Source: Rhea pennata (Eukaryota > Chordata > Aves > Rheiformes > Rheidae). From it: 64,000 bases of DNA. Below the pieces are notes generated by a model that worked only from the letters and a program-made list of their open reading frames with translations, was not told the DNA's origin and did no database searches. The stretch is from the NCBI RefSeq assembly GCF_028389875.1, contig NC_084682.1, positions 4,908,001 through 4,972,000 on the forward strand, in the 5' to 3' direction. Below, one piece after another: positions 10,182 to 62,859 of the stretch. Position 1 is the stretch's first letter, and every line of letters starts with the position of its first letter. The translations under genes and the position numbers were made by a program.

Positions 10182-10349
10182 CCTGCGGGGCAAAGAGCGC
10201 GAGGGAGCGCTGGCGGCGGCGGCCCTTAGCGAAACTACAACGACCGTGGGGCGCTTCGCGGGGGGGAGGAGGGGGGGCGCGAAGGTTGGGGCGCGTTAGC
10301 GGCGGGTCCCCCGCTGCCGCGCTGAATCCACAGGCGGGCGAAGCCGGTC

Positions 10350-10563
10350 ATGGCGCCGCCGCCGGCCTCGGAGGGCCCCGAGGCGCCGCCACTGCAGTAC
10401 AGCCTGCTGCTGGAGCACCTGGTGGGCGAGCGGCGGCGGCCCCGCGCCTGGGACCCCGCCGCCCTGGGCGGCATCCCCAGCCCGCCCAAGAGCGAGGAGC
10501 AGAAGATGGTGGAGCGGGCCATGGAGAGCTGCGCCTTCAAGGCGGCGCTGGCCTGCGTGGGAG
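10350..10563 (+). CDS. TIMM22: TIMM22 coding exon 1
   Basis: Starts MAPPPASEGPEAPP and ends ..ALACVG plus one base. Donor GGAG|GTGCGG. It holds the hydrophilic N-terminus and the beginning of the first membrane helix. Confidence 0.95.
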
Positions 10564-13249
10564 GTGCGGGCAGGGCCGGGGCCGGCGAGGCAGCTGCCGC
10601 GCGGGGCGCCCCGCGGCCTGCTCCCCCGCGCTCCTTGAGGGAGAGCCGGGCCTGAGCTGCCCCGACCCCCGGGAGAGGCGGGGGGGGGAGGAACCTGCTC
10701 TGGCGTCGCTCGTTTTACACCTTCTGTCCTCCGCAGGGTTTGTTCTGGGGGGCGCGTTCGGCGTGTTCACAGCGGGCATCGACACCAACGTCGGGTTCGA
10801 CCCCAAGGACCCCTACCGCACCCCGACTGCAAAGGAGGTCCTCAAGGACATGGGGCAGCGAGGCATATCCTATGCGAAGAACTTTGCCATTGTGGGCGCC
10901 ATGTTCTCTTGCACCGAGTGTCTGGTAGAGTCTGTGAGTAACGATTTCCTCAGCGTTATAAAGCGTTGTCTTGTATGTAGATCTAAATAAATATGTGTTT
11001 CCCATTAAAGGGAGGGGGGTGCAGACAGGCATAGGCTAAAGTCTGTTCTGCTTCTTGGCCCACAAAGCTTTTCAGCTTTGAGCAGCGACTTCAGAACTGC
11101 TGTTCTCTGTAGTGGAATAAGCACGAGTTCATTGTGCTCCAGGTCCACATGATAATGAAGTGCTTGTCAGTTCAGGGCCTGAATGTATGGGCAAGTAAAC
11201 AATACTGTTGAAACCCCAACTACAATTACTTGTTATTACTTTAAAACATCAGTCTGTGACTTGCAACCTGGTAATTTGAACCTATAAAAATTCCAGATGC
11301 AGAAGGGATCCTTTGATGGAAATTCTTTAGTAACAGGCCTTTTTTCATCCAGCCCCTAAAGCAAAAAATGACTTTGTGCAGCTCATTGGTAAATCTCTCA
11401 GCCATTTACTTAAATAGGAAAACTAGCCTGTTTTAAATTTTAGTGCTGCCTTTTAATTGAAAGGCACAATTATTTCTTAGCTCATCTAGAAGAAAAGTGC
11501 ATTCACTTGCACAATGGAGCAGTACATAGAGATCTTTCTGCACCAGTGAAAAATTAGTATGTTCTAGCTATGGAAATTTGTCTTCATCAGCAGAGTGCAA
11601 CAGCCTGTGCTTGTGCTCAGAAATGAGCTGGCTATGTGGACAGGCTCAGTGTTGCACTTGTTGGATTGTTGTGCCTTTAAAAGTCTCTGAGCTGGCACCA
11701 CTTCACAATGCTGTGTTCTGGGGGCTGTGTCAGATCACCTGAGAATCTTTGCCATAACACTGCATTGCACCATATGGCTATGACTTACCTCTCCTAGTGA
11801 CCTGTTTCTTCCCCTCCTTCCGCCCCCAGAATTCTTAGATTTGAAAGTGCAGGGGGCCATCTGCTGAGAACAGAGGGGAAAACATCTTCAGCTCAGAAGA
11901 AACTAGAAGGACATTTTAATATCTGTTGGCATTAGCATGGATACTGAGTGTTCGTTCCATATTTGCTTTTTGACTCTGATTTTTAATTCCACAGTATCGT
12001 GGAAAGTCGGACTGGAAGAATAGCGTTATTAGTGGCTGCATCACAGGAGGAGCAATCGGCTTCAGAGGTTGGTAGTGCCTGCTGTGAGGGGCTTCTGTGA
12101 TGAGTCCATAATTTGATTAAGTAGCAAGCAGTGTTTTTAAGGCAATGCACAAATCTCTTTGCATGGGATTATGATGATGTGTGAGTGAGTACTCCAAACT
12201 GGCAGAACTGCTATCTCCATCACTTTCCTGTCAGCTTGAAAGATTTGTGTGGGTAGGGAAGGCTGGTTGTACAGGACAGTGAGATATGAGAAAATTTAAC
12301 ACAAGTGACTTGAAAGTTAATCAGAAAATGCTCTTTGCTATCTGCAGTCTTCTATGGTGTTACAGTGAGTGAGCCAAAAATACATAGTGAACAACTCACT
12401 GATGTTTTAGCTTTTGTGCTAACAGAGCTCTGCTTTATATATAGTATTTCATTGTCAGGAACTCTGTTAGCTTCAACAGTGTGCAAAATGCTACCCTCCC
12501 TGCCCTGAGATCAAATCAAACAGGCAATTCTACCTGACTGTACAAAAGCAGGAAACACTGGGATTTTATAGTCCATCAGTCCCTAGTAGGGACCTTGCTG
12601 GCAAGCCTTAAGGGAAAAGACAGCTGGAGAGAATCTGCAAGTAGGAAGAGGGCTGCTCTGCTCATCAGAAAAATTAAACTTCTTTCATCTCTCCTTTAAA
12701 AAACAAACAAATAAAAAAGCTGTCCAAAGAACATAAAAGAAAGAGCTATTTGAAAATCCTATTTGAGCTTGTTACGCTATCCTGGACTTATTCCTCCTAG
12801 AGCTTTTAAAGCAGCAGTTGCTCTTCCTGTCCATCTATTGTCCAGCAACAAAGATGTTTGCAGCGCTCTGATCAGAGTGCATTGAAGTTAGCCAGAAGCA
12901 CTGGAGTTTTCTCTTCTAGCCTTTGGGTGGAGACTGGGAAACACAGAGGCTAATCAATGTGTCGAGCTAGTCGAGCCCTGGGAATGCAAGTCGAGTATGT
13001 GCCAGGTTACCCCCATCCACTTGGGCAGGAGCAATGACAGCTTTCCCTGGTAGAGGACTATGAGGTTTCTGCAGCTGTAAGCTCTTCAAGACAGCAGTGG
13101 AGGCTAGTTACTGGGAGGAAAAAATCTTTCCTATTTTTTTTCTCATTCGTTCTAATCCCTCTTGCATTGCAGCTGGTTTGAAGGCAGGGGTTATCGGATG
13201 TGGTGGATTTGCTGCGTTCTCTGCAGCAATTGATTACTATCTACGGTAA
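10350..13249 (+). CDS. TIMM22: TIMM22, mitochondrial import inner membrane translocase subunit Tim22 (four exons)
   Basis: Coding exons 10350-10563, 10737-10933, 11995-12067 and 13173-13249 join to 561 nt, 186 aa plus TAA (human about 194 aa). Every intron is GT-AG. The product is the pore-forming subunit of the TIM22 complex, which inserts multi-spanning carriers into the inner mitochondrial membrane. Family hallmarks are visible: a hydrophilic N-terminus, a first membrane segment around residues 65-88 (ACVGGFVLGGAFGVFTAG), the conserved VGFDPKDPYRTP loop, YAKNFAIVGAMFSCTECLVES as the second segment, and glycine-rich third and fourth segments ending IDYYLR. Cysteines of ESCAF and FSCTEC are near those reported to form the intramolecular disulfide. 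The start in GTCATGG is the first ATG of the CpG-island exon. The gene is convergent with ABR, as in human. Confidence 0.97.
10737..10933 (+). CDS. TIMM22: TIMM22 coding exon 2
   Basis: Acceptor TCCGCAG|GG, donor TCT|GTGAGT. Encodes GFVLGGAFGVFTAG, the NVGFDPKDPYRTP loop and the helix up to CLVES. Ends in phase 0. Intron 1 is only 173 bp. Confidence 0.97.
11995..12067 (+). CDS. TIMM22: TIMM22 coding exon 3
   Basis: Acceptor TTCCACAG|TAT, donor AGAG|GTTGGT. Encodes YRGKSDWKNSVISGC and the glycine-rich ITGGAIGFR. The donor is somewhat weak (GTTGGT), but the phase and protein match are exact. Confidence 0.93.
13173..13249 (+). CDS. TIMM22: TIMM22 coding exon 4 (terminal)
   Basis: Acceptor CATTGCAG|CT. 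Encodes the last membrane segment, GLKAGVIGCGGFAAF, and the C-terminus IDYYLR followed by TAA at 13247-13249. Confidence 0.96.
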
Positions 13250-41700: not shown

Positions 41701-44700
41701 GCACGCTCCCCCCGGCTCGGCCTGCCCGCAGAGCATGTGGGTGCTCTGCCCCTGCCCTGGCACCAGTAGCCCACAGAGCCCGCACGGGGGTGGCCGGCTG
41801 TGCCCATGCAGCCGTGGCCTGCGCCCACGCAGGCGCGCGCTCACGTGGGGCAGGACGCACAGCTCCCGGGCCGGGTGGGTGACACTGCTGGCAGCCAAGC
41901 CAGGAAGTGCTCGCCCAGCTCCGGGCCCAGAGCAGCATCTGCCTGGCCCGCTCCAGTGGGTGCCCCACGCTGGCACAGCTGAGCCCCTGCTCCGCCAGCC
42001 AGCTCGGGGGGCTGCCATGGCCCCCACTGCTGCCTGGGTGCCCACCCTGCTCGGCCCCGGGGGCCTGCTCCCCGCAAAGCTGCACCCTTACGGCCGGGGC
42101 CGAGATTCCTAGCACGGTGGAGGGTGCTGGGGGGAGCCGGTTTTGTGTGCTCAAAGCTCACGGGCTCTTTCCACCGATGAGTCACGGGCTCTTCCTGCTT
42201 CCCCCGAGGCCGGGCCCTGCGAGGCAGCCTGGGAGATAAGGGGGCCCGTCCGCTCCCGGGGCCCCCAGCACCGCACGGGGCAACGCCAGCCGGACCCCCG
42301 CGACCTGGACGGGAGAGGAGCAGGGAGCCGGCCCCGGGGCAGCTCCCCACGCAGGAGAGCCCAAGGATGGAGCGGCTGCAGCTGCAGCCCCCTGCTCACC
42401 TGGGGTCCCTGGCCGGGGTGGCGAGAGGAGGGTGCAGAGCTGGGGCCAGCAGTGGCTGTCAGCACACAGACCCCCCCTCCGGGCACCGAGGCCTGGCTGG
42501 GGTGCCCAGGGCCAGGGTGCAGCGTGGGCACAGATGGGTTTGGGGCTGCGTTTGGGGGATTCGCCCGTGGCCGTGCGGTGAGTCGGTAGCACAGAATGGT
42601 CCAGCCTTTTCCGCAGCATCCAGCACCAGCTCTGCTGGGAGAGCCCCTGAGCCACGGCTGCCCACCGCCGGCCGGCACGACGGCTCCTGCTCCCCCCCGA
42701 GAGTGGGGCCAGACGCTCACCATGCTCTGCTCAGCCACTGGCTGAGCTCTCTGCAGCCAGCCCCTCTCATATCACTGCTCCCTTCCCACTGCTCCTGCCC
42801 TGGGACATCTCGTAGCCAAGCCCTCAGCCCTGCGCCAGCCCGGGGTACGGCGGGGCCGCAGCGATGCTCCCTGTGCCCCCCACGGCTCACCAGCGCCTTG
42901 CCGCGGGGTGCTGCTGCTGCAGTGGCTCAGGTGAAGAGAGCCCCCAGACCAGGACGCTGTTGGCACCAACAAAATGCCCTTTCTTCATCCCACCCACGGT
43001 CCAGCACAAGGCCCTGGTACCCCGAAAGGGAATCTGTGCCCACCTTCTCGCTGGCCAAGAACGGAGAGCCTGGGCTCGTGGGGGTTCCCGGCTCAGAGTC
43101 ATCTTCATCCTCTAGGACTTTATCCAGGTACCCTATGGCCTCCTCTTCCTCCTCCATGGCCTGCCGAGCACCGGGGGACAGAGGGGAACCTCAGGAGGCT
43201 CCAGATGGGAGGGCCTACGCCACAGAGCCAGCCTGGCCTGACTCAGCCCTGGAAGCTGGCCACAGCCTCTCGATGAAAGGAGCCATTATGGGATTGCCGG
43301 TGCTCCCGCCGGCCCCAGCTCAGGCCGTTGGCCCCGGTGTCCCGGCGGGAGCGTGAAGGCACTTCCCAGGCGGCTGCAGAACGGCCTCTGCGCCGCAGCG
43401 GAAACTCCCGGGCCGTCAGCGGCGGGGGAAGAGGGCCAGCTCAGCTCTTCCCTCGCCTCCGCCGAACCCCGCGGGGGGCTGCAAGCGGTGGAGGGCTGCT
43501 GCCCGCCGCGCTGCTCCGCAGCCAGCCCCGCCGCTCCGCCCTGCGCTCTCGCTACAGGAAATGCATGTCTTGGAGCTGGAGGTGGGGCCGCTCCGGTGGC
43601 GTGTGGTCAGCGCCGGGCGCGCAGCAGCCTGCCGCCCGCCCGCCTGCTTTTTCGGAGTTGGATTTTGCAACGCCGAGCGGCAGCGCGCTTGGCCTTGGGG
43701 AAGCCAGCTCCAGTCATCTGTCCTGCCCCTGTGGCGAGGGGGTCTCGGGAGGGAATCCAGCTCCCTCCAGGGACCTCAGCACAAAAAGCAGGACCTGCTG
43801 GTGGAGGGGTCCTGGCTGCATGCTCAGCACTGGCACAGCGGCACCTGCCCCTGTGCCAGCCACATCACAGCACGGTGCCCCAGCCTTGCCGGAGCAGCAC
43901 CTTTGCCTCCATCGGAGACCCACCTGGACCCGCTGTGCCCCCCTACACTGCTGCTCCCCAGTGCCTTCTTGTCCTGCCAGACAGAGCAGCAGCCATATGG
44001 GAGCATCCACCCTGCCTGCTGGCACCCACAGGGGCCCCCACCATCCTCCTGCGTCCCACAAGCAGGGGGACCACAGGACTTTTCACCAGCAAGAAGTGAC
44101 CCCAGGAAGACAGCAGACAGGATCAGCTTCCATAACAGGGACCTGGACCTCAGCTCCCCAGGAAAAGGGTTCTGGAGTCCTCCCATCCCACAGGAGACCT
44201 CAGCAGTTTGGCCCAAGAAACATGGCCACACAAATGCCCCTTCCTGGAGCATCTACTCAGCACCCAGCAGAAGGATGAGAACCAGTGCCTCGCTGCTAGC
44301 CCTGGCCAGATGACAACCCACCCCAGCAGCTGCTGGGGCAGACGGAGAGCCAGGAAACAAGCTCTGATGTGTGCATCTGTGTGGACATCTCCTGGGCCTC
44401 AGCAAACAGGGCAAGACTAGACTGGGGATGGTGACGGGTGCTTGAACCAATTATTTCAAGAGCCATTTTAGCAGTTCCCCCCTCTCCTCTGCAGTAAAAG
44501 GGAACCAGGGGCTGCTGGCGCTCTGCCTCCATGAGCCTATTTCTTCTCTTTGCTCCTCTCAAAGCCCGTAACAAATTCCTGGTGCCAGAAGCAAGGGCAG
44601 GAACACAGACACGGACTTTTCAGAGCCCACATCCAGCTGTGCACTTCCACGCTGAAGCTCCGTCTTGACACAGTCATGGGATAGGGGTCTCTCCCAGGAT

Positions 44701-47700
44701 ACCAGGACTCTGCACACAGTAGCCAGTCCTCAGGGCAGGGGAAAGCCCCCCACACCACAGGAAAGCCACCTTCCACCCAGTCCCTGACCTCAGCACACAG
44801 ATTTGTGGCAGGCGGCAAGCACACTGGGGATGTGGGGAGAAAGGCCGACAGCAAAGCACTATCCTGCCCTGTGCCAAACCCCACAGCATCCAAGGAGAGC
44901 CTGGGCCACCTACCTGCACAGGGATTGTGGCCTGTGCCAGGACACTCACATTTTCTAGGCAGGGAGACAGAGGGAGGGACTGTGTTTGCCCTCAGCTGCT
45001 GGGGGCTCCGGCCTCAGTCACAGCTACCCCAGGAGCTTGCAACAAGGGATGTCCTGCTAGAAACCCACTCTAGACCCCCGAGCTGAGGGATGTCACCCTC
45101 AAGCATGGAAAGGCAAAGATACTAGTCCCACCTCACCAGAGAACAGCAATGAGGCTGTGCCAGGCACCCCATGTTATCCGGACACAGGGATCAGCACACT
45201 ACCTTGTGCCCACCTTGAGGCTGGAAGCACAAAGAGATTAAAGCTGTCAGCCCCAAACTGGTGTATTCAAACGGCACTCAGCTAAGCTCCAAGGCAAGCA
45301 GCTGCAGATAAAGAGATTGGAGGCAGAGCCGGCAGTGAGCTTTAATGCTTTCCAATCCTGTTAGCTCCAGGACAGCGCAGGGCCAGCGCTGAGCTGAGAC
45401 GGCCACTCGAGACCACTTCAACGCCTGTGTCTAGTCTGAACGGCTTCTCTCCACGCTCAGTCGGTCCCAGGGAGCACACCTTTGGCAGCACCCCCGAGGA
45501 CCTCCCCATCCACCTTCCTATGTCTCCAGGATCACCCTTCACTTTCCTTATCAGCCCCTGGAGAAGGACACTATCTAACAACATATCCACCAACAAGTCC
45601 CAGTGCCAGTCTCAGGCGCTGTAGCTAGCTTGTCCCGGGGGACAACTAAGCTGCAATGCGGGACCCAAAGCCTGGGTGGTTTGCACCCAGCCCTGGGACA
45701 CTGCTCCTGTGTGTTGCCTGGTGGGGAAGCAGCAGGATGGCCTCTCTCTCGGTGGAGGTAGCACAGCCCTTGGCTAGCTGGTGGGGTGCAAGAGGGCTTG
45801 GATGGGGCCCACCTTTGTGGCCGCCAGTGCTGGCTGCCCAGAGGATGCTGCGCTGCTCACCCTGGGCAGAGGCAGGGGAAGGCAGGGCAGGCACCCGCAC
45901 CCTGGGGAGGAAGCCACACCTCTCGGCTCCTCTGCCTCAACATCCGGGTTTAGGGCTTAACTCTTTCCATGACACAAACCCTCTGGCTCTCCAACGCAGC
46001 CTCCGCCAGCACGGACCGGCCCCCTGCAAAATCACAGACTTCAGCCCAGCTGCAGCCCACTGCGGGACCCTGGCAGCTCACCCTGCCACGCTGGGTGGCA
46101 GCAGGCACCGGCGCAAGGCTCCCCCACCCAGCGGCCCAGCAGGCGTTTTCTGAACCAGCCTTGTGCCAAGGGAGCGTGCCAGGGCCGGTGCCCAGGGAGC
46201 CGGGAACAAGGCTGCGGCACCGCCCGGCCGGAGCCAGCCCTCCCAGAGCACACCGGGAAAGGCAGCGCTGGGGACAGCAGCCCCCCTGCCCCCAGGCTTT
46301 AGGGAAACGGTTATTCCAAAACAAGTATTTTCTCCTTTTGATTTTCCAGTCCAAAACTTTCTAAACTTTTCTCCTTTAAAGATAACGGATGAAATCCCAA
46401 TGGCTTCACAGTTGCTACTAAGAGCACAAGGAGAGCAAGAGTTAAATCTAAGTTTCCCAGAGAAGAGGAGGGGATTGACAAGGTCAGTCTCCAGCTGGCG
46501 GATTGTCCCCTGCACCACTAGATGGAGCTGGCAGCCCAGCAGAGCGGCTGTCCCCTGTCCCCAAGGCTGGGCTCCTCCCCAGAGCACGGGGACAGGGATG
46601 CTAGGGACCTCACACCTCCTAGCAGCTGGAGATCCCAGCCACTCTCCGGTCGATTCAGGCAGCTCTGACTCTCCAGCAGCCAGACCCTGCTCTCCTACCT
46701 CCTTGTGCTCTCCTAGCTGTGCCACCAGCAAGGCAGGTGTGTTTTCACTTGTCCCAAGGGGCTGATGCCGATGTGACCCTCAGCTGCCACTTCCCCTGCT
46801 CCTTCCCACTAACACGGAATCCTTAAAGAGAGCAACCAAACAACGTGCTGCTCCTCCCGAGCTGCGAAGAGGAGCCCAAAGCATGGAGGGCCGAGGACAA
46901 CAGGGTTTGGGAAACCAACCCCAGCCATTTGGGTCACAGCAGCTCCAGACCATCACCACCACTGGAGACATGTCCAAGCTGGGCAGTCCTCCAGTGCCTG
47001 CTTCAATGGGGCCCAGTGCAACGCTCCACGTCCAGCCACCTACCCCTGTGCCGAGGCCGTCGGTGGGCGTGGGAGAGACGCCGTCCCCGCCGTCTTGGCC
47101 GCGGGCGCTGAGCTGGGGGGACATGGTGGGCGACTCGTCGATGTAGGGCATGGTTTCCGAGCCCTCCGGCAGGGCCTTGGGCTCCTCGTTCCCCTCGGCG
47201 TCGTAGTCGTCTGCACCATAGCTGAAGTCTACGAGGAAGAGAAGATGGCGGTGGTGAGAGTCCGGGAGCTGTTGCCACATCCAGGCCGCGGGAGGGGCAC
47301 AGGACCCCCTCGCCGCCCAGTGCCTACCAGCAGGAGAGCGGGGGGGTGCCAAGCGGGCGCCTCCATCGCCGCTCGCCCAGGCTCTCCGGCGCGCAGGACG
47401 CTCCCGAGCCCCGCGAGGGCCCTCCAGAGCCGCCGCGGCGCCCGGGGCCCTGCGGCGCGCGCCGGCCGCAGCCCTGCGCCCGCTCCCTGCCCAGCCCCGC
47501 GCGGCGGGCGTCCTGCTCCGAGACGCTTCCCTCCCTCTGCGGAGCACACGCAGCCGGAGGAGGAGGAGGCCGCAGCCGGCTCTGCCGAAGGGTGGGGGGG
47601 GGAGCCATTTTGGGGAGGATGGAGGAGGGACGGGAGCAAGGGTGCGGGGGGGGGGTCTGCGGTGGCCTCCCCGGCGCGGCGGGGGGCCGGGGTACGGCCG

Positions 47701-50700: not shown

Positions 50701-52217
50701 CTTGGGCTGACCAGGCTACAGAAAACAGCTTGGCTTCTTGGAAGCCCCTTCTCACAGCTGCACAGACATACAGACGTGTGGGTCCACCATTGTCTTCACT
50801 TACATGATGAAGGCCAGAACTTGCCAAATATCCCAGGAAATATTTACATGTTGAACTGTCTCTCTTGGGCCTCTATTCTCAGCAGCAGAGGTGGTCAGAG
50901 AAGAAATCAGGAAGTGGGAGCCAAGCCAGTTTTTTTCGTAGAGATGCAACTGCTGGGAAGGTGTCCACGGATGCTAGGTCTTGATGTGGCCTCCAGGCTC
51001 TGTTCCAGCTGCCAGCACAGCCATAAGCAAGACATTGAGACTGATGATTTTGGAAGCAGCCTCCAGCTGTGGGTGTCTGTGTTGCAGGCTTCAGGCTGCA
51101 AAACTTCGGGGGGCTCAGCCTGCTTTCATGCCCAGCCCCACTCAATGAGCCGTCCAGCTGCTCCTGTGGCCTCCACTCCCACTCACTCCAGGTTCAAGGG
51201 CAAGTAGGTGCTAAATAGACGCAGGGAAAATGATTCCCCCTATTCTTTGGATTCCCATCTCACTATCCCACATGCTTGCATCAAACCTTGCTGCCCACTG
51301 ATCCATACCTCTGCAAACGCCAAACTCTAAACTCAATAGCTCCAGAGCAAACATCCTAAGGGGAATTCAGACCCCTAAAACTACCCACCTGCATGGCCAC
51401 ACAGCTCAACACTTCCCCAGAACCAACAACAGAGAACCTGCAGCTGAGTCCTCCTGCATCTCATAGCTGTGTCTCAGACTCCCTTAGCCATCTGCAAGAC
51501 AGCCAGTCTGCCCTGGGGCCCCCAGGCTGCCGTGGGGCCAGGACAGCTCTAGGGAATGCAATTCACACACCGGGTCCAGGTATGCCTAACCGTGGGGTTG
51601 GGAATCACACGCAGCCTGCACAGATGTGCTGCTGCAGGATCCCCTGGCCCCGGCGGCTGCCGGTCCTTGGATACAGACCCCACAGGACTGCATTTCCACA
51701 GCATCCTCAGCACAGCGCCTCGGAGCTCGCTGCGAAAATCACTGCTGGCGGAGAGGGAGAGGAGGCTTCCGAGGCCACAGAGAGCCAGCGACGGGACCCG
51801 GGGGAGAAAGTCCCCACGTCCCCAAAGACCCTGGTGGGCAGAGCAAGTTGTCAGCCTGCTCTGGCCCCGGCCCCAGCGAGCCCCACCGTGCCAGGGCCAC
51901 CATCACCATCCTGCTGGTGCAGCCCCTCGGAGCAGCTCCCCCAGGCTCCGGGGGTGCCTGCACTGACCCCGGCTCCGGGTCCCCCACGGCCTGCCCCCTG
52001 CCCGCGGCTCGGCTCAGCCCGCGGCCCTAGGGCGCAAGCTGGGATCCCCGGGCGCAGCATCCTTCCCCCAGCGCAACGCAGCGTTACACAACAGGTAGGG
52101 AGGGACCCGCCGCCCCTGCCGCAGCCCTCCCGGCCCCCCCTGCCCAGGGCACGTACTGCTGTAGAGGGTGTCGATCCAGGAGAGCCGCGGCAGGCCGCGG
52201 TGGCTCAGCGGCTCCAT
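17688..52217 (-). CDS. ABR: ABR, active BCR-related RhoGEF/RhoGAP (861-aa form, 23 coding exons)
   Basis: Twenty-three exons join in phase to 2586 nt, 861 aa plus TAG (human long form 859 aa). ABR regulates Rho-family GTPases at membranes and the cortex: the DH domain promotes nucleotide exchange and the C-terminal RhoGAP domain stimulates GTP hydrolysis, mainly on Rac and Cdc42. Approximate domains: N-terminal segment 1-92, DH 93-286, PH 303-461, C2 486-615, RhoGAP 649-847. The arginine finger in GIYRISG is residue 685 (codon 22074-22076). The C-terminus LYFSTDV matches ABR, not BCR. The gene is convergent with TIMM22, as in human 17p13.3. At least three further in-phase N-terminal exons exist (61762-62119, 37525-37570, 27781-27942) plus one symmetric exon (43044-43160). 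Assignment to ABR rather than BCR rests on exon-by-exon recall of both proteins. Confidence 0.97.
17778..18348 (-). other. ABR intron 22
   Basis: GC-rich intron of 571 bp with normal GT-AG ends. Apparent open frames on both strands here are composition artefacts. No repeat or regulatory element stands out. Confidence 0.8.
18349..18496 (-). CDS. ABR: ABR coding exon 22 (RhoGAP)
   Basis: Acceptor ATCCTGCAG|G, donor CCCAG|GTAAGG. Encodes [20 protein letters not shown] and [13 protein letters not shown], the conserved asparagine-containing helix of RhoGAP domains, to ..SHDVMAQ. Confidence 0.97.
18497..20425 (-). other. ABR intron 21
   Basis: About 1.9 kb, GC-rich, with a poly(C)-rich low-complexity run around 18650-18678. 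No exon with ABR-compatible phase was found. Long open frames here (for example 17933-19156 on +) have no recognisable domain. Confidence 0.75.
20426..20531 (-). CDS. ABR: ABR coding exon 21 (RhoGAP)
   Basis: Acceptor TCGCCAG|CC, donor AAAAG|GTAACA. Encodes [20 protein letters not shown] and [14 protein letters not shown], the central helices of the GAP domain. Confidence 0.97.
20532..20998 (-). other. ABR intron 20
   Basis: 467-bp GC-rich intron with standard splice sites. Nothing else seen. Confidence 0.8.
20999..21133 (-). CDS. ABR: ABR coding exon 20 (RhoGAP)
   Basis: Acceptor CTGGACAG|AT, donor GATTG|GTAAGT. Encodes [20 protein letters not shown] and [14 protein letters not shown], the GTPase-contacting block with the family motif [11 protein letters not shown], then LYPAFMEGI. 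Confidence 0.98.
21134..22021 (-). other. ABR intron 19
   Basis: About 0.9 kb, GC-rich, no recognisable element. Confidence 0.8.
22022..22161 (-). CDS. ABR: ABR coding exon 19 (RhoGAP arginine finger)
   Basis: Acceptor GAGCCAG|G, donor GCAA|GTGAGT. Encodes [19 protein letters not shown], then the catalytic GIYRISG. The arginine-finger codon is 22074-22076 and is intact, so GAP activity is expected. Confidence 0.98.
22397..22506 (-). CDS. ABR: ABR coding exon 18
   Basis: Acceptor CCTGCAG|ATC, donor GAA|GTACGT. Encodes [20 protein letters not shown] and [16 protein letters not shown], the linker between C2 and RhoGAP, nearly identical to human ABR as I recall it. Confidence 0.97.
22688..22747 (-). 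CDS. ABR: ABR coding exon 17
   Basis: Acceptor CCCTGCAG|CTG, donor GGG|GTAAGT. Sixty bases, phase 0-0, encoding [20 protein letters not shown] at the end of the C2 domain. Two different upstream exons (16 and the alternative start at 27781-27942) both end in phase 0 and can join it. Confidence 0.97.
22748..27780 (-). other. ABR intron 16, proximal part (CpG-rich)
   Basis: About 5 kb, extremely GC- and CpG-rich between roughly 23.1 and 27.8 kb, with poly(C)/poly(G) runs near 24630 and 26827-26842. Many long open frames on both strands (up to about 519 codons on +) are stop-poor by composition only. They show biased Ala/Pro/Gly/Arg content and no domain. The right part probably belongs to the island of the 27.9-kb alternative promoter. 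Confidence 0.65.
27781..27942 (-). CDS. ABR: ABR alternative first exon, RhoGAP-only form (316 aa)
   Basis: ATG at 27940-27942 opens 54 codons ([15 protein letters not shown].., ..[21 protein letters not shown]) ending AAG|GTGCCT in phase 0. This matches the phase-0 start of exon 17. There is no acceptor directly upstream and the exon lies in a dense CpG island, so it reads as a first exon. The product would be 316 aa: a basic/acidic novel N-terminus, the last strand of C2 and the complete RhoGAP domain, with no DH or PH. Short human ABR transcripts of about this size exist as far as I recall. Cysteine-rich start and dibasic pairs are notable. Start choice: only ATG in the frame near the island. 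Confidence 0.7.
27900..28420 (-). promoter_or_regulatory. CpG island at the internal ABR promoter
   Basis: Very CpG-dense sequence surrounding and upstream of the 54-codon exon. No TATA box was seen. Limits are by eye and merge with CpG-rich sequence on both sides. Confidence 0.5.
28420..31378 (-). other. ABR intron 16, distal part
   Basis: About 3 kb of GC-rich intron. CpG density falls after about 29.5 kb. No exon, repeat or RNA gene recognised. Confidence 0.7.
31379..31510 (-). CDS. ABR: ABR coding exon 16 (C2)
   Basis: Acceptor CCCCAG|GAG, donor ATCCAG|GTATGT. Encodes [20 protein letters not shown] and [15 protein letters not shown], then KIMGKGQIQ. Core of the C2 domain, phase 0-0. Confidence 0.98.
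31618..31715 (-). CDS. ABR: ABR coding exon 15 (C2)
   Basis: Acceptor TGCCAG|AC, donor AATGAG|GTGAGG. Encodes [20 protein letters not shown] and [12 protein letters not shown], a typical C2 beta-strand block. Confidence 0.98.
31917..31991 (-). CDS. ABR: ABR coding exon 14 (C2)
   Basis: Acceptor GTTGCAG|AC, donor GCCA|GTAAGT. Encodes [20 protein letters not shown] and KQSA, the first C2 strands. Confidence 0.98.
31992..32545 (-). other. ABR intron 13
   Basis: 554-bp intron with standard ends. No further element seen. Confidence 0.8.
32546..32650 (-). CDS. ABR: ABR coding exon 13
   Basis: Acceptor CTCCCAG|AC, donor GATG|GTGAGT. Encodes [20 protein letters not shown] and [14 protein letters not shown], between PH and C2. 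Confidence 0.98.
32827..32902 (-). CDS. ABR: ABR coding exon 12 (PH)
   Basis: Acceptor CTTGCAG|AGC, donor AAGG|GTAAGT. Encodes [20 protein letters not shown] and KLQKK, the C-terminal helix of the PH domain with its invariant tryptophan. Confidence 0.98.
33140..33262 (-). CDS. ABR: ABR coding exon 11 (PH)
   Basis: Acceptor CCTACAG|AAA, donor GGCAAG|GTGAGG. Encodes [20 protein letters not shown], then [20 protein letters not shown]. The tryptophan in EFWLLL (codon 33194-33196) replaces a leucine in the human protein as I remember it. Confidence 0.97.
33499..33664 (-). CDS. ABR: ABR coding exon 10 (PH)
   Basis: Acceptor CAACTGCAG|G, donor AAAGAG|GTAAGA. Encodes [20 protein letters not shown] and the linker [15 protein letters not shown], then the basic helix before exon 11. 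Confidence 0.98.
33804..33925 (-). CDS. ABR: ABR coding exon 9 (DH-PH junction)
   Basis: Acceptor CCTGCAG|ACC, donor GTGGG|GTAAGG. Encodes [20 protein letters not shown] and [17 protein letters not shown], the first PH strands. Confidence 0.98.
34272..34412 (-). CDS. ABR: ABR coding exon 8 (DH)
   Basis: Acceptor GTTCCAG|GAC, donor GGGGAG|GTGAGG. Encodes [20 protein letters not shown] and [18 protein letters not shown], the last DH helix. Confidence 0.98.
34743..34795 (-). CDS. ABR: ABR coding exon 7 (DH, CR3)
   Basis: Acceptor CACAG|CG, donor CTGCAC|GTGAGT. Encodes [18 protein letters not shown] (first residue split), the conserved DH region that contacts the GTPase. Both exon 6 and the alternative exon at 37525-37570 end in phase 1 and can join here. 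Confidence 0.98.
34796..37524 (-). other. ABR intron 6, 3' part
   Basis: About 2.7 kb. It contains a (CAT)6 run at 35638-35655 and CpG-rich sequence from about 37.0 kb that belongs to the alternative promoter. No other exon was found. Confidence 0.75.
37050..37870 (-). promoter_or_regulatory. CpG island around the 641-aa ABR start
   Basis: CpG-dense block with a GCC-type trinucleotide run at about 37748-37767 upstream of the MEILV exon. Limits by eye. It spans part of intron 6 and ends near exon 6. Confidence 0.55.
37525..37570 (-). CDS. ABR: ABR alternative first exon (641-aa form)
   Basis: ATG at 37568-37570 followed by [15 protein letters not shown] and one base, donor TACG|GTGAGG (phase 1), joining exon 7 to read [13 protein letters not shown]. 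Human ABR has a matching short start (MEILL..RFCCNCTY) as I recall it. The product is 641 aa and lacks most of the DH domain, so exchange activity should be lost while PH, C2 and RhoGAP remain. The hydrophobic, cysteine-rich start (CCNC) could be lipid-modified, which is inference. No acceptor lies upstream and the exon sits in a CpG island. Confidence 0.85.
37885..37945 (-). CDS. ABR: ABR coding exon 6 (DH)
   Basis: Acceptor CTCCGTAG|GAG, donor GAGG|GTAGGG. Encodes [20 protein letters not shown], the loop before the last DH block, ending in phase 1. Confidence 0.97.
37946..38770 (-). other. ABR intron 5
   Basis: 825-bp intron, GC-rich, no further element seen. Confidence 0.8.
38771..38878 (-). 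CDS. ABR: ABR coding exon 5 (DH)
   Basis: Acceptor CCCTACAG|GCC, donor TCAGAG|GTGAGC. Encodes [20 protein letters not shown] and [16 protein letters not shown], phase 0-0. Confidence 0.98.
38879..39969 (-). other. ABR intron 4
   Basis: About 1.1 kb, moderate GC, no recognisable element. Confidence 0.8.
39970..40155 (-). CDS. ABR: ABR coding exon 4 (DH)
   Basis: Acceptor TTTGACAG|CCC, donor AAACTG|GTATGT. Encodes [40 protein letters not shown] and the helix to GHLFQKL. Phase 0-0. Confidence 0.98.
40156..40824 (-). other. ABR intron 3
   Basis: 669-bp intron with standard ends. Nothing else recognised. Confidence 0.8.
40825..40929 (-). CDS. ABR: ABR coding exon 3 (start of DH)
   Basis: Acceptor TTGCGCAG|GGT, donor TTG|GTAAGC. 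Encodes [20 protein letters not shown] and [15 protein letters not shown], the first DH helix. Phase 0 at its start, so it can be joined by exon 2 or by the 43-kb exon. Confidence 0.97.
40930..43043 (-). other. ABR intron 2, 3' part
   Basis: About 2.1 kb of GC-rich intron. CpG density is raised at about 41.2-42.4 kb but I see no start codon with a usable donor there. Confidence 0.65.
43044..43160 (-). CDS. ABR: ABR symmetric acidic exon (cassette or alternative start)
   Basis: A 117-nt stretch reading [16 protein letters not shown].., [15 protein letters not shown].., ..FLASEK ends at donor GAGAAG|GTGGGC in phase 0. Directly before it is a good acceptor (TTCCCCTCTGTCCCCC..CGGCAG|GCC). It lies between exon 2 (ends phase 0) and exon 3 (starts phase 0), so it would insert 39 residues without shifting the frame. 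Alternatively the ATG at 43155-43157, in GGCCATGG context, may start a transcript giving an 817-aa form without exons 1-2. The local sequence is not CpG-dense, which favours a cassette. The coding sense is supported by the acidic/Ser-Pro-rich but non-repetitive composition. Confidence 0.65.
43161..47043 (-). other. ABR intron 2, 5' part
   Basis: About 3.9 kb. CpG-rich at about 43.3-43.7 kb, otherwise moderate. An AT-richer island at about 46290-46470 stands out against the GC-rich surroundings and might be a conserved non-coding element. No exon recognised. Confidence 0.65.
47044..47228 (-). CDS. ABR: ABR coding exon 2
   Basis: Acceptor CTCTTCCTCGTAG|AC, donor ACAGGG|GTAGGT. Encodes [40 protein letters not shown] and a Gly/Pro-rich tail. 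The [13 protein letters not shown] block is shared with BCR (PYIDDSPSSSPHLS). The exon accepts one base from the preceding exon (phase 1), from either 52157-52217 or 61762-62119. Confidence 0.97.
47230..48060 (-). promoter_or_regulatory. CpG island directly upstream of ABR exon 2
   Basis: A dense CpG block in intron 1. It contains one candidate 13-codon start exon at 47328-47366 ([13 protein letters not shown], donor CTG|GTAGGC, phase 0), which would fit exon 3 but not exon 2. Reading through the exon 2 acceptor also stays open from an ATG upstream ([15 protein letters not shown]..). Whether a transcript starts here cannot be told from sequence. Confidence 0.4.
48061..52156 (-). other. ABR intron 1 (inner part)
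   Basis: About 4.1 kb. It begins with two AT-rich homeodomain-type blocks (48050-48110 and 48245-48280) inside GC-rich sequence. From 48.8 to 51.3 kb the DNA is of ordinary composition. No exon, repeat family or RNA gene recognised. Confidence 0.6.
48251..48272. promoter_or_regulatory. 22-bp homeodomain-type palindrome
   Basis: CATTAGCA and TGCTAATG are perfect 8-bp inverted arms around ATTAGC. Three ATTAG/CTAAT cores lie within 22 bases. A regulatory role is inferred from the pattern only. Confidence 0.35.
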
Positions 52218-58600: not shown

Positions 58601-61600
58601 TGCAGGGAAACCCAGACACCTGCCGCTCCCAGGACCGCGTACGCCTTCCCATCGCCCAGCCCGCCTGCGTTCCCGGGGCGCTCAGAGGGGCTGTGGCTCC
58701 CGAGAGAGGCGTTCCCCCATCTGGGAGATCCCGGGGTGCCACACGGCTCTGCCCGGAGCAGAAGCCCCCCAGCACCCGAGGAGCCGATGGCAGGTTTTAC
58801 TCTTTTAGCTCCTTCACAAACTGCTCCTCTGCCCTTGGGCCAACACAGCGAAGTTACGCCAAAACCCAGCACTTACTTACCACTTTCATTTAAAAGCCAT
58901 GAAGCCAGAACTGCTCAGCTCAAAGGCTTTTAACCTCCCGAACTTCTACATTTATTTTTTTTCCCCACTTTTTAATGGTGCCAGCCTGCCCCCAGCGCAA
59001 CCCTTCGGCCCTCGCGGCCCGTCACCGGCCGTGCCCGTCCCCCGCGAGGGCGACCTGCGTCCCGGCGCGGCGCGCGGCAGCCAGCCCTGGCAGGGGTTCT
59101 CGCAGAAACGCCACGTTCGGCACCTCCCCAAACCCCGCCGGGCCTCGGAGCAGAGGGAGACGGTTCAAAGGTCCCAAGCAGGGCTCGCTCGCTCGCTCGC
59201 TCACGTACGCCAGGCTGTGATTTCGTCCTCTCCTAAGCACACAAAATTACCCGCTGCAACTCTCCGCCTCCTTCACCCACCAGAAGAGGAGCTTTCAGCA
59301 CGTTCAGAACCAAACAAGCACTTTTCCAACAGCTGGGAAATACTGTTAAGTTAAAATTTAAAAAAAGTGAGGACACAAACTTTGCAGACGAGCCGTCCTG
59401 GCGCGCGAACTCCCATGCAGGGACCAACTCCAAGATCCTGTCCGTGCTTTAAAGACGGGGAAATGGGTGCACAGAGAAGGAAGCAACTTGGCAATAACAC
59501 GCCTGAGATCCTTCACCTTTCACGCACCGCGAGCACCCCGCACAGAAAGAGATGCCTCGAGATACACTTACGACTTTGCTCACTATCTTCTGTCCTCCTT
59601 TTGTTTGGGCTGGGGGGGATTTTACGAGGAAGGGACGAGGACACAGCAGGGTCCACAGGCGACCCAGGACAGCGGGACAGAGCCACGGCTCCAGCACTCC
59701 CCGGGCACGGCCAGGGCCACACCAAAGTGCCATTTCCAAGAGCATTTTGGCACACAGACCTTTCCCAAGGCTCCCGTGTTTCCGTGCTCACCAGCTCTCC
59801 GGCATGGAGACAGAAACCATAATTCCAGCTAAACACAGGGCTCAGGATTTCCTTTCCGACATGGCCCACACCCGCAGGGTCCTGCTGCGGCCAGAGCCAC
59901 CGGCCAGCCGCGCGGGGGCTCCCGGAGCCCTGCCGCCGCGGGTGCCCGGGCGCAGGGTGCTCTGCGGGGCGGGGGGAAGCGGACGGCGCCCCAGAGTCCG
60001 ACAGCGGCTTGCAAAGTCCCGGCAGCAAAGCAGCTCCGAGGTAGAGCCGGCCTTCTCCGAAGCCTCCCAAGGGCAGAGCAGGGAAACTGAACACCGAGGT
60101 CGTTCCCCCTTGGCGCAGCGAAGCCGGGAGCACCGGATGCAAAGCGTCTCCCGCAGCGCACCCTCTCCTCGGCCGCCGGCATGGCTGTGCCGCGGTGCTG
60201 AGCTCGCATGCAGGCGAGGACCCCTCCGGGCTACGAAGCTGGTGCTCTCGCAGGCCCAGAAAATTATTTCTTACACTACGCTCCAGGAAATCCCTTGAAC
60301 AAAATACATCCTCCCATCCACTAGCTCGAGAGCAGCATTGCACAACCTTGAGTATTGGGAAACATTCAGGAGCATCACGGAGATATAAATAAAATACAGC
60401 ATTTAACCGTCAATAAGAACGCATTGCCACACGCGGCGCTCGGTCGCTTGGACACACTCGAACCTCCCCGCGGCCACTGAGCAGCTCTCCGAACCCACAA
60501 ATGCTGCCCGCTAGCGGGCAGCGCTGAGGGGCTCGGGGCCGCGCTCCGGCACAGCCGGCGCTCCCGCGGTGTCCGGGCACAAGCTCCCACTCTCCCGCCT
60601 GCCCCGAGCCGGCTGCTCCCCATGGATTTGCGGCCGGACTCGGAGGGTCACAGAGCTGCATGCATGGGCACCTTACAGGGACGTGCCGCCGACACCGGCC
60701 ACGTGCCACGGAAGGGTCACCTCCGGACAGCTCAGGGATGCGAAAGGGAAGCCGAGCTCTTCTCTGGCTCCGGAGACTAATGCAATAAATATAAACTAGG
60801 CTCAGTAATAAGCATGTTTATAGATCAGAGTACTTGCTACCTGGGCAATCTGAAAAAAGTGCTATATAGGCTTGAAAAGAAACCCCCAAGCAATCAAGCA
60901 ACAACAAAATTAACTCAAGCCAGCTGCAGAACTAGCTGCAAAAAAAAACGTGACATTTGCTTGCTGTCAAGGCTGCGTTTGAACCAGGACTGAAGCGTGT
61001 GGGCTGATGCAATAACGACTTCCAGGCCGCTGGAAGTAGGACAGCGCGACACGCGACAGCGCGCTGGCTGTGCCCTCAGTGCCACCGAACACCCCATCGT
61101 GGGCGAAAAGCCACCGTCCTGAGCGGAGCTGGGGCCCCGCGGGCCCAGCACGCTGCTGCTGCGGCGGCTCCAGGGCCTCCCCGGGGAGGTCACGCAGCGC
61201 AGCGTCACCTGAGCAGAGATGTCCCCACGGCCAGGTCGCTCCCGGAGGAAGTGACCTTCACGCAGTGCCCCAGCTGTGGCTGGAGGTGGCTCCGGGGCCA
61301 GAGGCCCTGGCTGCACGTGGGATGTCACCAAGGGCCGGCCAGGTGGGGCCGGCCACCGCCCCTTGCTCACCTAGAGCTGAGTCCTCATGTAGGCAGGGGC
61401 AGACTGCGGTGGCACCGGATGCAGTTAGTGGTGGGATGAGGACAACACAGGGTGTTGGGTGGCCTTGCTGGTAGGACAGGGACAGCACAGGGGGTCAGAG
61501 TGGCCTCGGTGGTGGGACAGGGACAGCACAGGGGTGCAGGGTGGACTTGGTGATGGGATGGAGAGAGCACAGATGTGTGGGGTGGCCTCAGTAGTGGGAC

Positions 61601-61761
61601 GGGGAGAGCACAGGGGTGCAGGGTGGCCTCGGCGGTGGGACGGGGACAGCACAGGGGTGCAGCGTGGCCTCGGCGGTGGGACGGGCAGCGCCCGGGGGGC
61701 CCGGGGCGGCGTCGGCAGCGCGATGGGGCGAGCAGCGGGGCCGCGGGCGGGGGGCACCCAC
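52621..61761 (-). other. ABR upstream intron of the BCR-like form / upstream region of the 861-aa form
   Basis: About 9 kb. It is GC-rich with broad CpG-dense stretches (about 53.1-55.4 and 58.2-59.2 kb) and a (GCTC)5 run near 59183-59202. Two AT-richer islands stand out at about 57735-57840 (with ATGCAAA at 57756-57762, ATTAG and GATA cores) and 60780-60960. I find no exon whose coding sense I can support. The long open frames, such as 442 codons at 53490-54818 on +, have only composition-driven content. Confidence 0.6.
61409..61704 (+). repeat. 41-bp minisatellite, about 6.5 units
   Basis: Units starting GTGGCCT(C/T) recur at 61459, 61500, 61541, 61582, 61623 and 61664, exactly 41 bp apart, with a diverged and slightly longer copy beginning at 61409. 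A typical unit continues with GGTGGGACGGGGACAGCACAGG. The array lies 58 bases beyond the donor of the BCR-like exon, inside the intron of that transcript. Because 41 is not a multiple of three, its translations cycle through frames, which explains some long spurious open frames. Confidence 0.93.
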
Positions 61762-62119
61762 CTGCCGAGGACGCGTCCTCCGGGTCGGAGCTGCCGTCGC
61801 TGCCCGCCTCGGGGGAGCTGGCGGGCGGCGGCGGCGGCGCGGCGGGCGGCGGGCGGCGGCGCGGCGGCGGCGGCGGGGCGCGGGCGGGCGGCGGCGGGGC
61901 GCGGGCCAGCGCCGCCTCCAGGTACAGCACCTTGAAGCGCTCCTCGGCCAGGGCGCGCTGCAGGCGGCGCAGGCGGCGGCGGCAGCGCTCCAGCTCCCGC
62001 TCCATGGCCCGCACCGAGCCCAGCTCCATGCGCGGCGCCGGCTCCCCCGGGAACTCGGCCTGCCAGTGCCGGGCGAAGTCGGCCCGCGCCGCCGCCTCCT
62101 CCTCCGCCGCCGCCGCCAT
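61762..62119 (-). CDS. ABR: ABR alternative first exon with BCR-type coiled-coil oligomerisation module (960-aa form)
   Basis: ATG at 62117-62119 in GGCATGG context opens 119 codons plus one base, ending GCAG|GTGGGT in phase 1, exactly the phase needed for ABR exon 2. Residues about 14-73 resemble the BCR N-terminus: FARHWQAEFPGEPAPRMEL versus FAEAWKAQFPDSEPPRMEL, then ERELERC (BCR EQELERC) and EERFKVLYLEAALAR (BCR QERFRMIYLQTLLAK). I count 29 identities over 59 aligned positions against human BCR as I remember it. In BCR this is the tetramerising helix pair. Here it is followed only by a Pro/Arg-rich low-complexity run and an acidic SDGSSDPEDASSA tail. The BCR serine/threonine kinase part and the Grb2-binding YVNV are absent. 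BCR exon 1 also ends in phase 1. No acceptor lies upstream and the exon is in a CpG island, so it is a first exon. The joined product would be 960 aa. Confidence 0.8.
61816..61905. repeat. CGG/GCG-rich low-complexity run
   Basis: Nearly uninterrupted CGG, GCGG and GGGCGG units on + encode the proline/arginine/alanine run (residues about 74-100) of the BCR-like ABR exon on -. A second GCC/CGC-rich run covers 62085-62160 at and upstream of the start codon. Confidence 0.85.
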
Positions 62120-62859
62120 GCCCCGCCGCCGCCGCCCCCCGCCCCGCCGCCGCCGCCGGCCCCAACTTTCCCGGCCGCCTTCCGCCCCCGCCCCGGGCCT
62201 TGACGTCGGCCCCCGGCGCCGCCCCGGGCCCGGCCCCGGCGGGGCGGGGAGCGCCGCTGCCGCCGCCCCCGGCCCGGCTCCCGCCGCGAGCCCCGCGCAC
62301 GTCCCTCACCGCGGCCTCGCGGCGGCCCGCTGGCGGGGGCCAGCAGAGAGCGGCTCCGCTACGAGCCCAGGTTTCGGCCGCTCTCGCCTTCCGGCTCGGC
62401 CGCGGCTGGATAGGCCCCGCGCCCCGCGGAGCCCGCCTCGGAGCCGCCGGCCGCGGGGGAGCCGAGCGGCGCGGGCCGGAGGATGGGGAGCCGCGGGGAA
62501 GCGCCTGGCGCCGGCAGCGGCTGAGCGTCAGCAGAGCGGCAGCTAACGGCACCAGCAGTCCCGCACCCGGCGAGAGCCGCCGTCCCGAGGACGCGGGGCG
62601 GCTGCGGTGCCGCCGCCAGCGCCTGCCCCTGCGGGCGCCCCGCACCGCTGCCCGGGCGCACGCTCGCGGCCGTGCGAGCGCGTTTCCAGCCCGGCCGACG
62701 TCGTCGACTGGGCTTGCTGTGGCACGGGGCCCCCCCGGGGGCTCTGGGGCTGCCGGTGCTCCCCAGCTGCAGGACGGAGGCTTTCTAGCCCCCCCGCCCT
62801 GCCCTGGGCCGCAGGAGCCCGCGGGGCCTGCACGTGTCTGGGACATCCCGGGGGACCCC

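Follow-up and report, generated by a model that had tools for sequence, protein, structure and literature searches.

A short open frame at the upstream end of the ABR locus of Rhea pennata is very probably an alternative first coding exon of ABR, homologous to exon 1 of BCR, that would give ABR an oligomeric form of 960 residues. The frame, here called exon 1a, occupies positions 62119 to 61762 of the minus strand in the 64,000-nucleotide stretch of contig NC_084682.1 that was analysed (the window). The features on which the argument draws are the following, all positions being those of the window.

61762 to 62119, minus strand: coding part of the putative ABR exon 1a, 119 codons plus 1 nt, phase-1 end.
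61901 to 62083, minus strand: Bcr-Abl_Oligo domain, residues 13-73 (from Pfam, the whole-genome profile search, 1K1F and the structure model).
61817 to 61897, minus strand: Pro/Arg-rich linker, residues 75-101 (from translation and repeat analysis).
61756 to 61764, minus strand: predicted 5' splice site of exon 1a, CAG/GTGGGT, 5.94 bits (scored with a frequency matrix).
61619 to 62619, no strand: CpG-rich core around exon 1a, GC 0.84, CpG observed/expected 1.0.
52157 to 52217, minus strand: ABR exon 1b, MEPLSHRG..., phase 1, in-frame TGA upstream.
47044 to 47228, minus strand: ABR exon 2, acceptor ...TCGTAG/AC, where the 1a and 1b forms begin to share their exons.
43044 to 43157, minus strand: ABR exon 1c, MEEEEEAIG..., phase 0, fitting exon 3.
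17688 to 40929, minus strand: ABR exons 3-23 (DH, PH, C2, RhoGAP and stop).

An earlier sequence-only reading of this DNA had described an open exon of 119 codons on the ABR strand, upstream of ABR, and both the frame and its Pfam match confirm that description. The coding part of exon 1a is open over 358 bases (119 codons and one base), and its ATG at 62119, with G at both -3 and +4, is the first in frame past an in-frame TGA 63 codons upstream. Residues 13-73 of the translation match the Pfam family PF09036 (Bcr-Abl_Oligo) over profile positions 3-63 of 73 with 97.3 bits (E 5.1e-28), which is 74 bits above the curated cut-off of 23.1 bits, and the solved BCR domain, 1K1F, matches the same protein by sequence with an E-value of 9.9e-14. 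The likeness to BCR that had been noticed stands, and the estimate of about 29 identities in 59 positions compares with 29 of 61 by alignment against wild-type human BCR and 28 of 61 against the 1K1F segment, the chain of which has A at position 38. Over the six frames of the window, the 1K1F segment attains its best local score, 152, at exon 1a, and the next-best place scores 38.

At the scale of the whole 1.27-Gb genome, a PF09036 search gave nine matches, two of them over the cut-off (counts that may be lower bounds): BCR exon 1, with 132.9 bits, and exon 1a, with 97.8 bits. The other seven score 19.5 bits or less. Searching the genome with the exon 1a protein itself (P0001) returned 34 matches at E up to 10, with BCR at 5.8e-9; apart from the query itself and BCR, all were discounted as low complexity, the third-ranking match of the 34 (E 4.7e-4, residues 34-113) provisionally so. 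That match is not among the two places that exceed the PF09036 cut-off. A guessed BCR-like start pattern matched this genome three times versus ten times in the control and was attributed to chance. Scanning a prokaryote collection with P0001 yielded 592 stretches that fit a pattern, none of which encodes a relative, an outcome that was expected and is uninformative.

The gene downstream of exon 1a is the ABR orthologue, judging from exons that are nearer ABR than BCR and from its syntenic place. With human ABR as a probe, coding exons from 52217 to 17688 on the minus strand join into a complete protein. In its 1b form this protein shares 810 of 859 residues with human ABR; the catalytic part encoded by the locus is identical to human BCR at 553 of 774 positions. 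Exon 1b is the known first exon of ABR (MEPLSHRG..., that of the 859-aa human form) and exon 1c the known short alternative start (MEEEEEAIG...), which here gives a protein of 817 aa. An in-frame TGA precedes exon 1b, which is thus not an internal coding exon in that frame, so that exons 1a and 1b are alternatives. Exon 1a ends in phase 1 and exon 2, beginning at 47228, takes phase 1, as had been claimed, whereas joining exon 1a to exon 3 breaks the frame.

The preferred gene model gives 960 aa with exon 1a, the length first predicted, and 861 aa with exon 1b. It uses the second of two exon 2/3 boundaries; the earlier one, with which the two forms came to 958 and 859 aa, was replaced in view of its donor (0.25 versus 2.82 bits) and its pyrimidine tract (0.375 versus 0.75 for the newer one). 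At this junction (47044 / 40929) the protein seems to carry two residues more than human ABR, reading TGGERDAGK where the first model read TGVDAGK. In the predicted 1a form, the oligomerisation domain would be followed by the Pro-rich linker and then by DH-PH-C2-RhoGAP, and Pfam recognises PF09036, RhoGEF, PH, C2 and RhoGAP in the 958-aa version of it. The 1b and 1c forms come from the same gene and share the same DH-PH-C2-RhoGAP exons. They differ in their N-termini, which have no Pfam match at E 1, and the 1b form has the 20 codons of exon 1b where the 1a form has 119.

The structure prediction that had been suggested along with the exon gave a short helix followed by a long one, and the long helix has a heptad core by sequence. 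In the AlphaFold2 single-sequence model of the exon 1a protein (mean pLDDT 79.8, pTM 0.40), helices span residues 2-22 and 33-73, and block pLDDT reaches 97-98 over residues 41-70. A fold search with this model placed two 1K1F chains among its three matches, with a probability of 0.99; their E-values (0.022 and 0.042) and rmsd (6.6-6.7 A) indicate that the helix arrangement of 1K1F is not reproduced in the model. Within helix 2, in the heptad register that we assigned, 7 of the 11 a/d positions are identical to human BCR and the other 4 are conservative, versus 10 identities in the 28 positions elsewhere in the helix. The hydrophobic fraction is 0.92 in the chosen register and does not exceed 0.64 in any of the six alternatives.

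These signs of function bear on the best of the rival explanations, by which exon 1a is a relic that was functional after the ABR/BCR duplication and is now little used or decaying, with ABR made from exons 1b and 1c only. Several observations are in keeping with such decay: the domain has diverged faster than the rest of ABR (25 of 61 identities to BCR of the same genome, against the 553 of 774 for the catalytic part and human BCR), its tail is repeat-derived, most of the linker being encoded within an array of GGC-type repeats (about 61820-61904), and the charge of helix 2 has changed. We nevertheless consider a relic unlikely, because the frame is open, the strong donor is intact, CpG observed/expected is 1.0, the domain stands 74 bits over the cut-off and the a/d core is kept, all of which neutral sequence would presumably have lost since so ancient a duplication. 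As for the strength of the donor, only 0.7% of the 3296 GT on the minus strand of the window score equally high; 8 of the 22 ABR donors outscore it, and the exon 1b donor scores -1.3 bits. Since the CpG-island rule picks out 13 islands across so GC-rich a window, the CpG-rich core lends little weight to a promoter at exon 1a. Scanning 62119-62700 for bacterial-type promoters yielded none, a result that is uninformative on vertebrate promoters. About 75 bases past the exon 1a donor, in ABR intron 1, lies a 41-bp minisatellite (61428-61685, 6.3 copies, with a 123-bp period too).

The neighbourhood of the locus bears on whether the exon belongs to ABR at all. Downstream of ABR, on the plus strand, lies a Tim17/Tim22-family gene (TIMM22-like, 10326-10990; Pfam match in one of the two pieces tested). 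Past the other end of the window, 1.6-5.5 kb beyond it, two plus-strand genes are divergent from exon 1a, one with an HLH domain (BHLHA9-like, L004:1576-2439) and one with a CD225 domain (TRARG1-like, L004:5032-5500). This order agrees with the gene order of human 17p13.3, TIMM22-ABR-BHLHA9-TRARG1. Over a further 30 kb (L005-L007), ORFs of 200 aa and three probes revealed no other recognisable gene. Upstream of exon 1b by 9.5 kb and separated from exon 2 by 14.5 kb, the exon could conceivably belong to a different gene or to a read-through transcript. We hold this to be very improbable, given that both genes recognised upstream lie on the opposite strand (the 40 kb past the window being covered by long ORFs and the three probes), that the phase is compatible with exon 2 of ABR but not with its exon 3, and that the only other domain over the cut-off in the genome search is in the homologous exon of ABR's paralogue, BCR.

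Comparison with BCR of the same genome, which lies on a separate contig (17) and has an exon 1 of 505 codons, suggests where exon 1a came from. With exon boundaries read by eye from the sequence, BCR exon 1 ends ATACAG/GTGCGT in phase 1 (the best of four GT looked at) and exon 2 starts with AT after TTTTACAG, which makes the split codon GAT, for Asp. Exon 1a of ABR ends GGCAG/ and ABR exon 2 starts with AC, giving the split codon GAC, again Asp, and the two second exons resemble each other (E 8.8e-7). The same phase-1 end, the G/AY split codon for Asp and the homology of exon 2 together make it very likely that the intron is the same in ABR and BCR. Most probably, then, exon 1a is homologous by position to BCR exon 1 and is neither a chance likeness nor a recent copy, and the earlier proposal that the exon arose before ABR and BCR split is supported by the homologous phase-1 intron and the common split codon.

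A recent copy of BCR exon 1, brought upstream of ABR by duplication or translocation, would also carry the same domain, and yet it is even harder to credit than an exon of another gene. Over 61 positions exon 1a has 25 identities to BCR of its own genome, while that BCR has 54 to human BCR, a disparity that speaks against recent copying. The intron phase and split codon are moreover the same in the two genes, exon 2 is homologous as well, and searching the window revealed nothing further of BCR exon 1. Residues 76-505 of the genome's own BCR gave no match there at E 5 (tblastn, SEG filter on), so that the BCR kinase and Grb2 site, which the sequence-only reading had said were absent, are indeed not detectable in the window by this search; when the window was searched unfiltered with human BCR, the many matches were of low complexity, fell mostly on residues 64-175 and were in no case convincing. 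Chance resemblance of a GC-rich open frame to a coiled coil has a negligible probability even in a region of 84% GC with many frames open, considering the 97 bits, the single occurrence in the window with two across the genome, and the score of 152 for the 1K1F segment, against a maximum of 47 when the surrounding 2 kb was shuffled 200 times with dinucleotides preserved.

Exon 1a resembles the N-terminal domain of BCR (PF09036, 1K1F) in its helix pair, in the a/d core of helix 2 and in its N-terminal place, and BCR exon 1 in its phase-1 end with a split Asp codon and its position upstream of DH-PH-C2-RhoGAP. It differs in length (119 codons versus 505), in its Pro/Arg-rich linker and in the net charge of helix 2 (+6 versus -1). 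ABR may have lost the rest of a long exon, or BCR may have lengthened instead. Exon 1 of the BCR studied here is 79 codons longer than exon 1 of human BCR with its 426 codons; 65 of the 79 precede the region of the Grb2 site (KPFYVN at 239 versus 174).

If exon 1a is an alternative first exon of ABR, as we favour, the following course can be proposed. Transcripts would start at exon 1a in the CpG-rich promoter region, have 61762 joined to the start of exon 2 (47228) and code for the 960-residue ABR. By analogy with BCR, the N-terminal helix pair would self-associate as an antiparallel, domain-swapped coiled-coil dimer, with a tetramer possible, and two to four DH-PH-C2-RhoGAP modules would be held together through the flexible Pro-rich linker. 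Such clustering would be expected to raise avidity for the membrane and for Rac/Cdc42/Rho. Whether promoter 1a, 1b or 1c is used would then decide whether ABR is made as the oligomeric form or as one devoid of the domain.

Both homo-oligomers of ABR and mixed oligomers of ABR and BCR are plausible predictions by the same analogy. The net charge of +6 on helix 2 (BCR -1) may weaken self-association and, more speculatively, the charge difference could favour, if anything, mixed ABR-BCR pairs over ABR pairs. A bolder extension, which we think rather unlikely, is that an oligomeric ABR isoform has been overlooked in most vertebrates, humans included, that its basic helix would prefer the near-neutral helix of BCR, and that it would form mixed oligomers with BCR and with BCR fusion oncoproteins through paired exon-1 domains. 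Fusion of BCR itself occurs in chronic myeloid leukaemia.

An oligomeric ABR would differ from published descriptions. In one study, Abr is described as being without the N-terminal oligomerisation domain of BCR, and TG2 cross-links BCR through that domain and Abr not detectably (PMC3044668). The Abr construct of that study had the N-terminal end found in the non-neuronal isoform, and the experiment was therefore no test of the 1a form (PMC3044668). Other papers state that ABR shares the GEF and GAP domains of BCR without kinase activity (PMC6505627), that the coiled coil has a part in keeping BCR and BCR-ABL1 cytoplasmic (PMC12295760), and that mouse Abr holds third place for TSS switching in the cerebellum (PMC5470264). 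The last point is in keeping with many promoters. Among the matches listed in open-licence literature, none concerns an ABR form with the oligomerisation domain; we provisionally regard such a form as new, though one may already figure among the isoforms predicted in sequence databases. Annotation of bird genomes readily overlooks first exons of very high GC content, and this would account for exon 1a having gone undescribed.

In summary, the use of exon 1a would mean that ABR has an oligomeric form and that promoter choice is a switch between clustered and unclustered GEF/GAP. It would also show that the ancestral ABR/BCR gene had the domain, and pairing between ABR and BCR would become testable.
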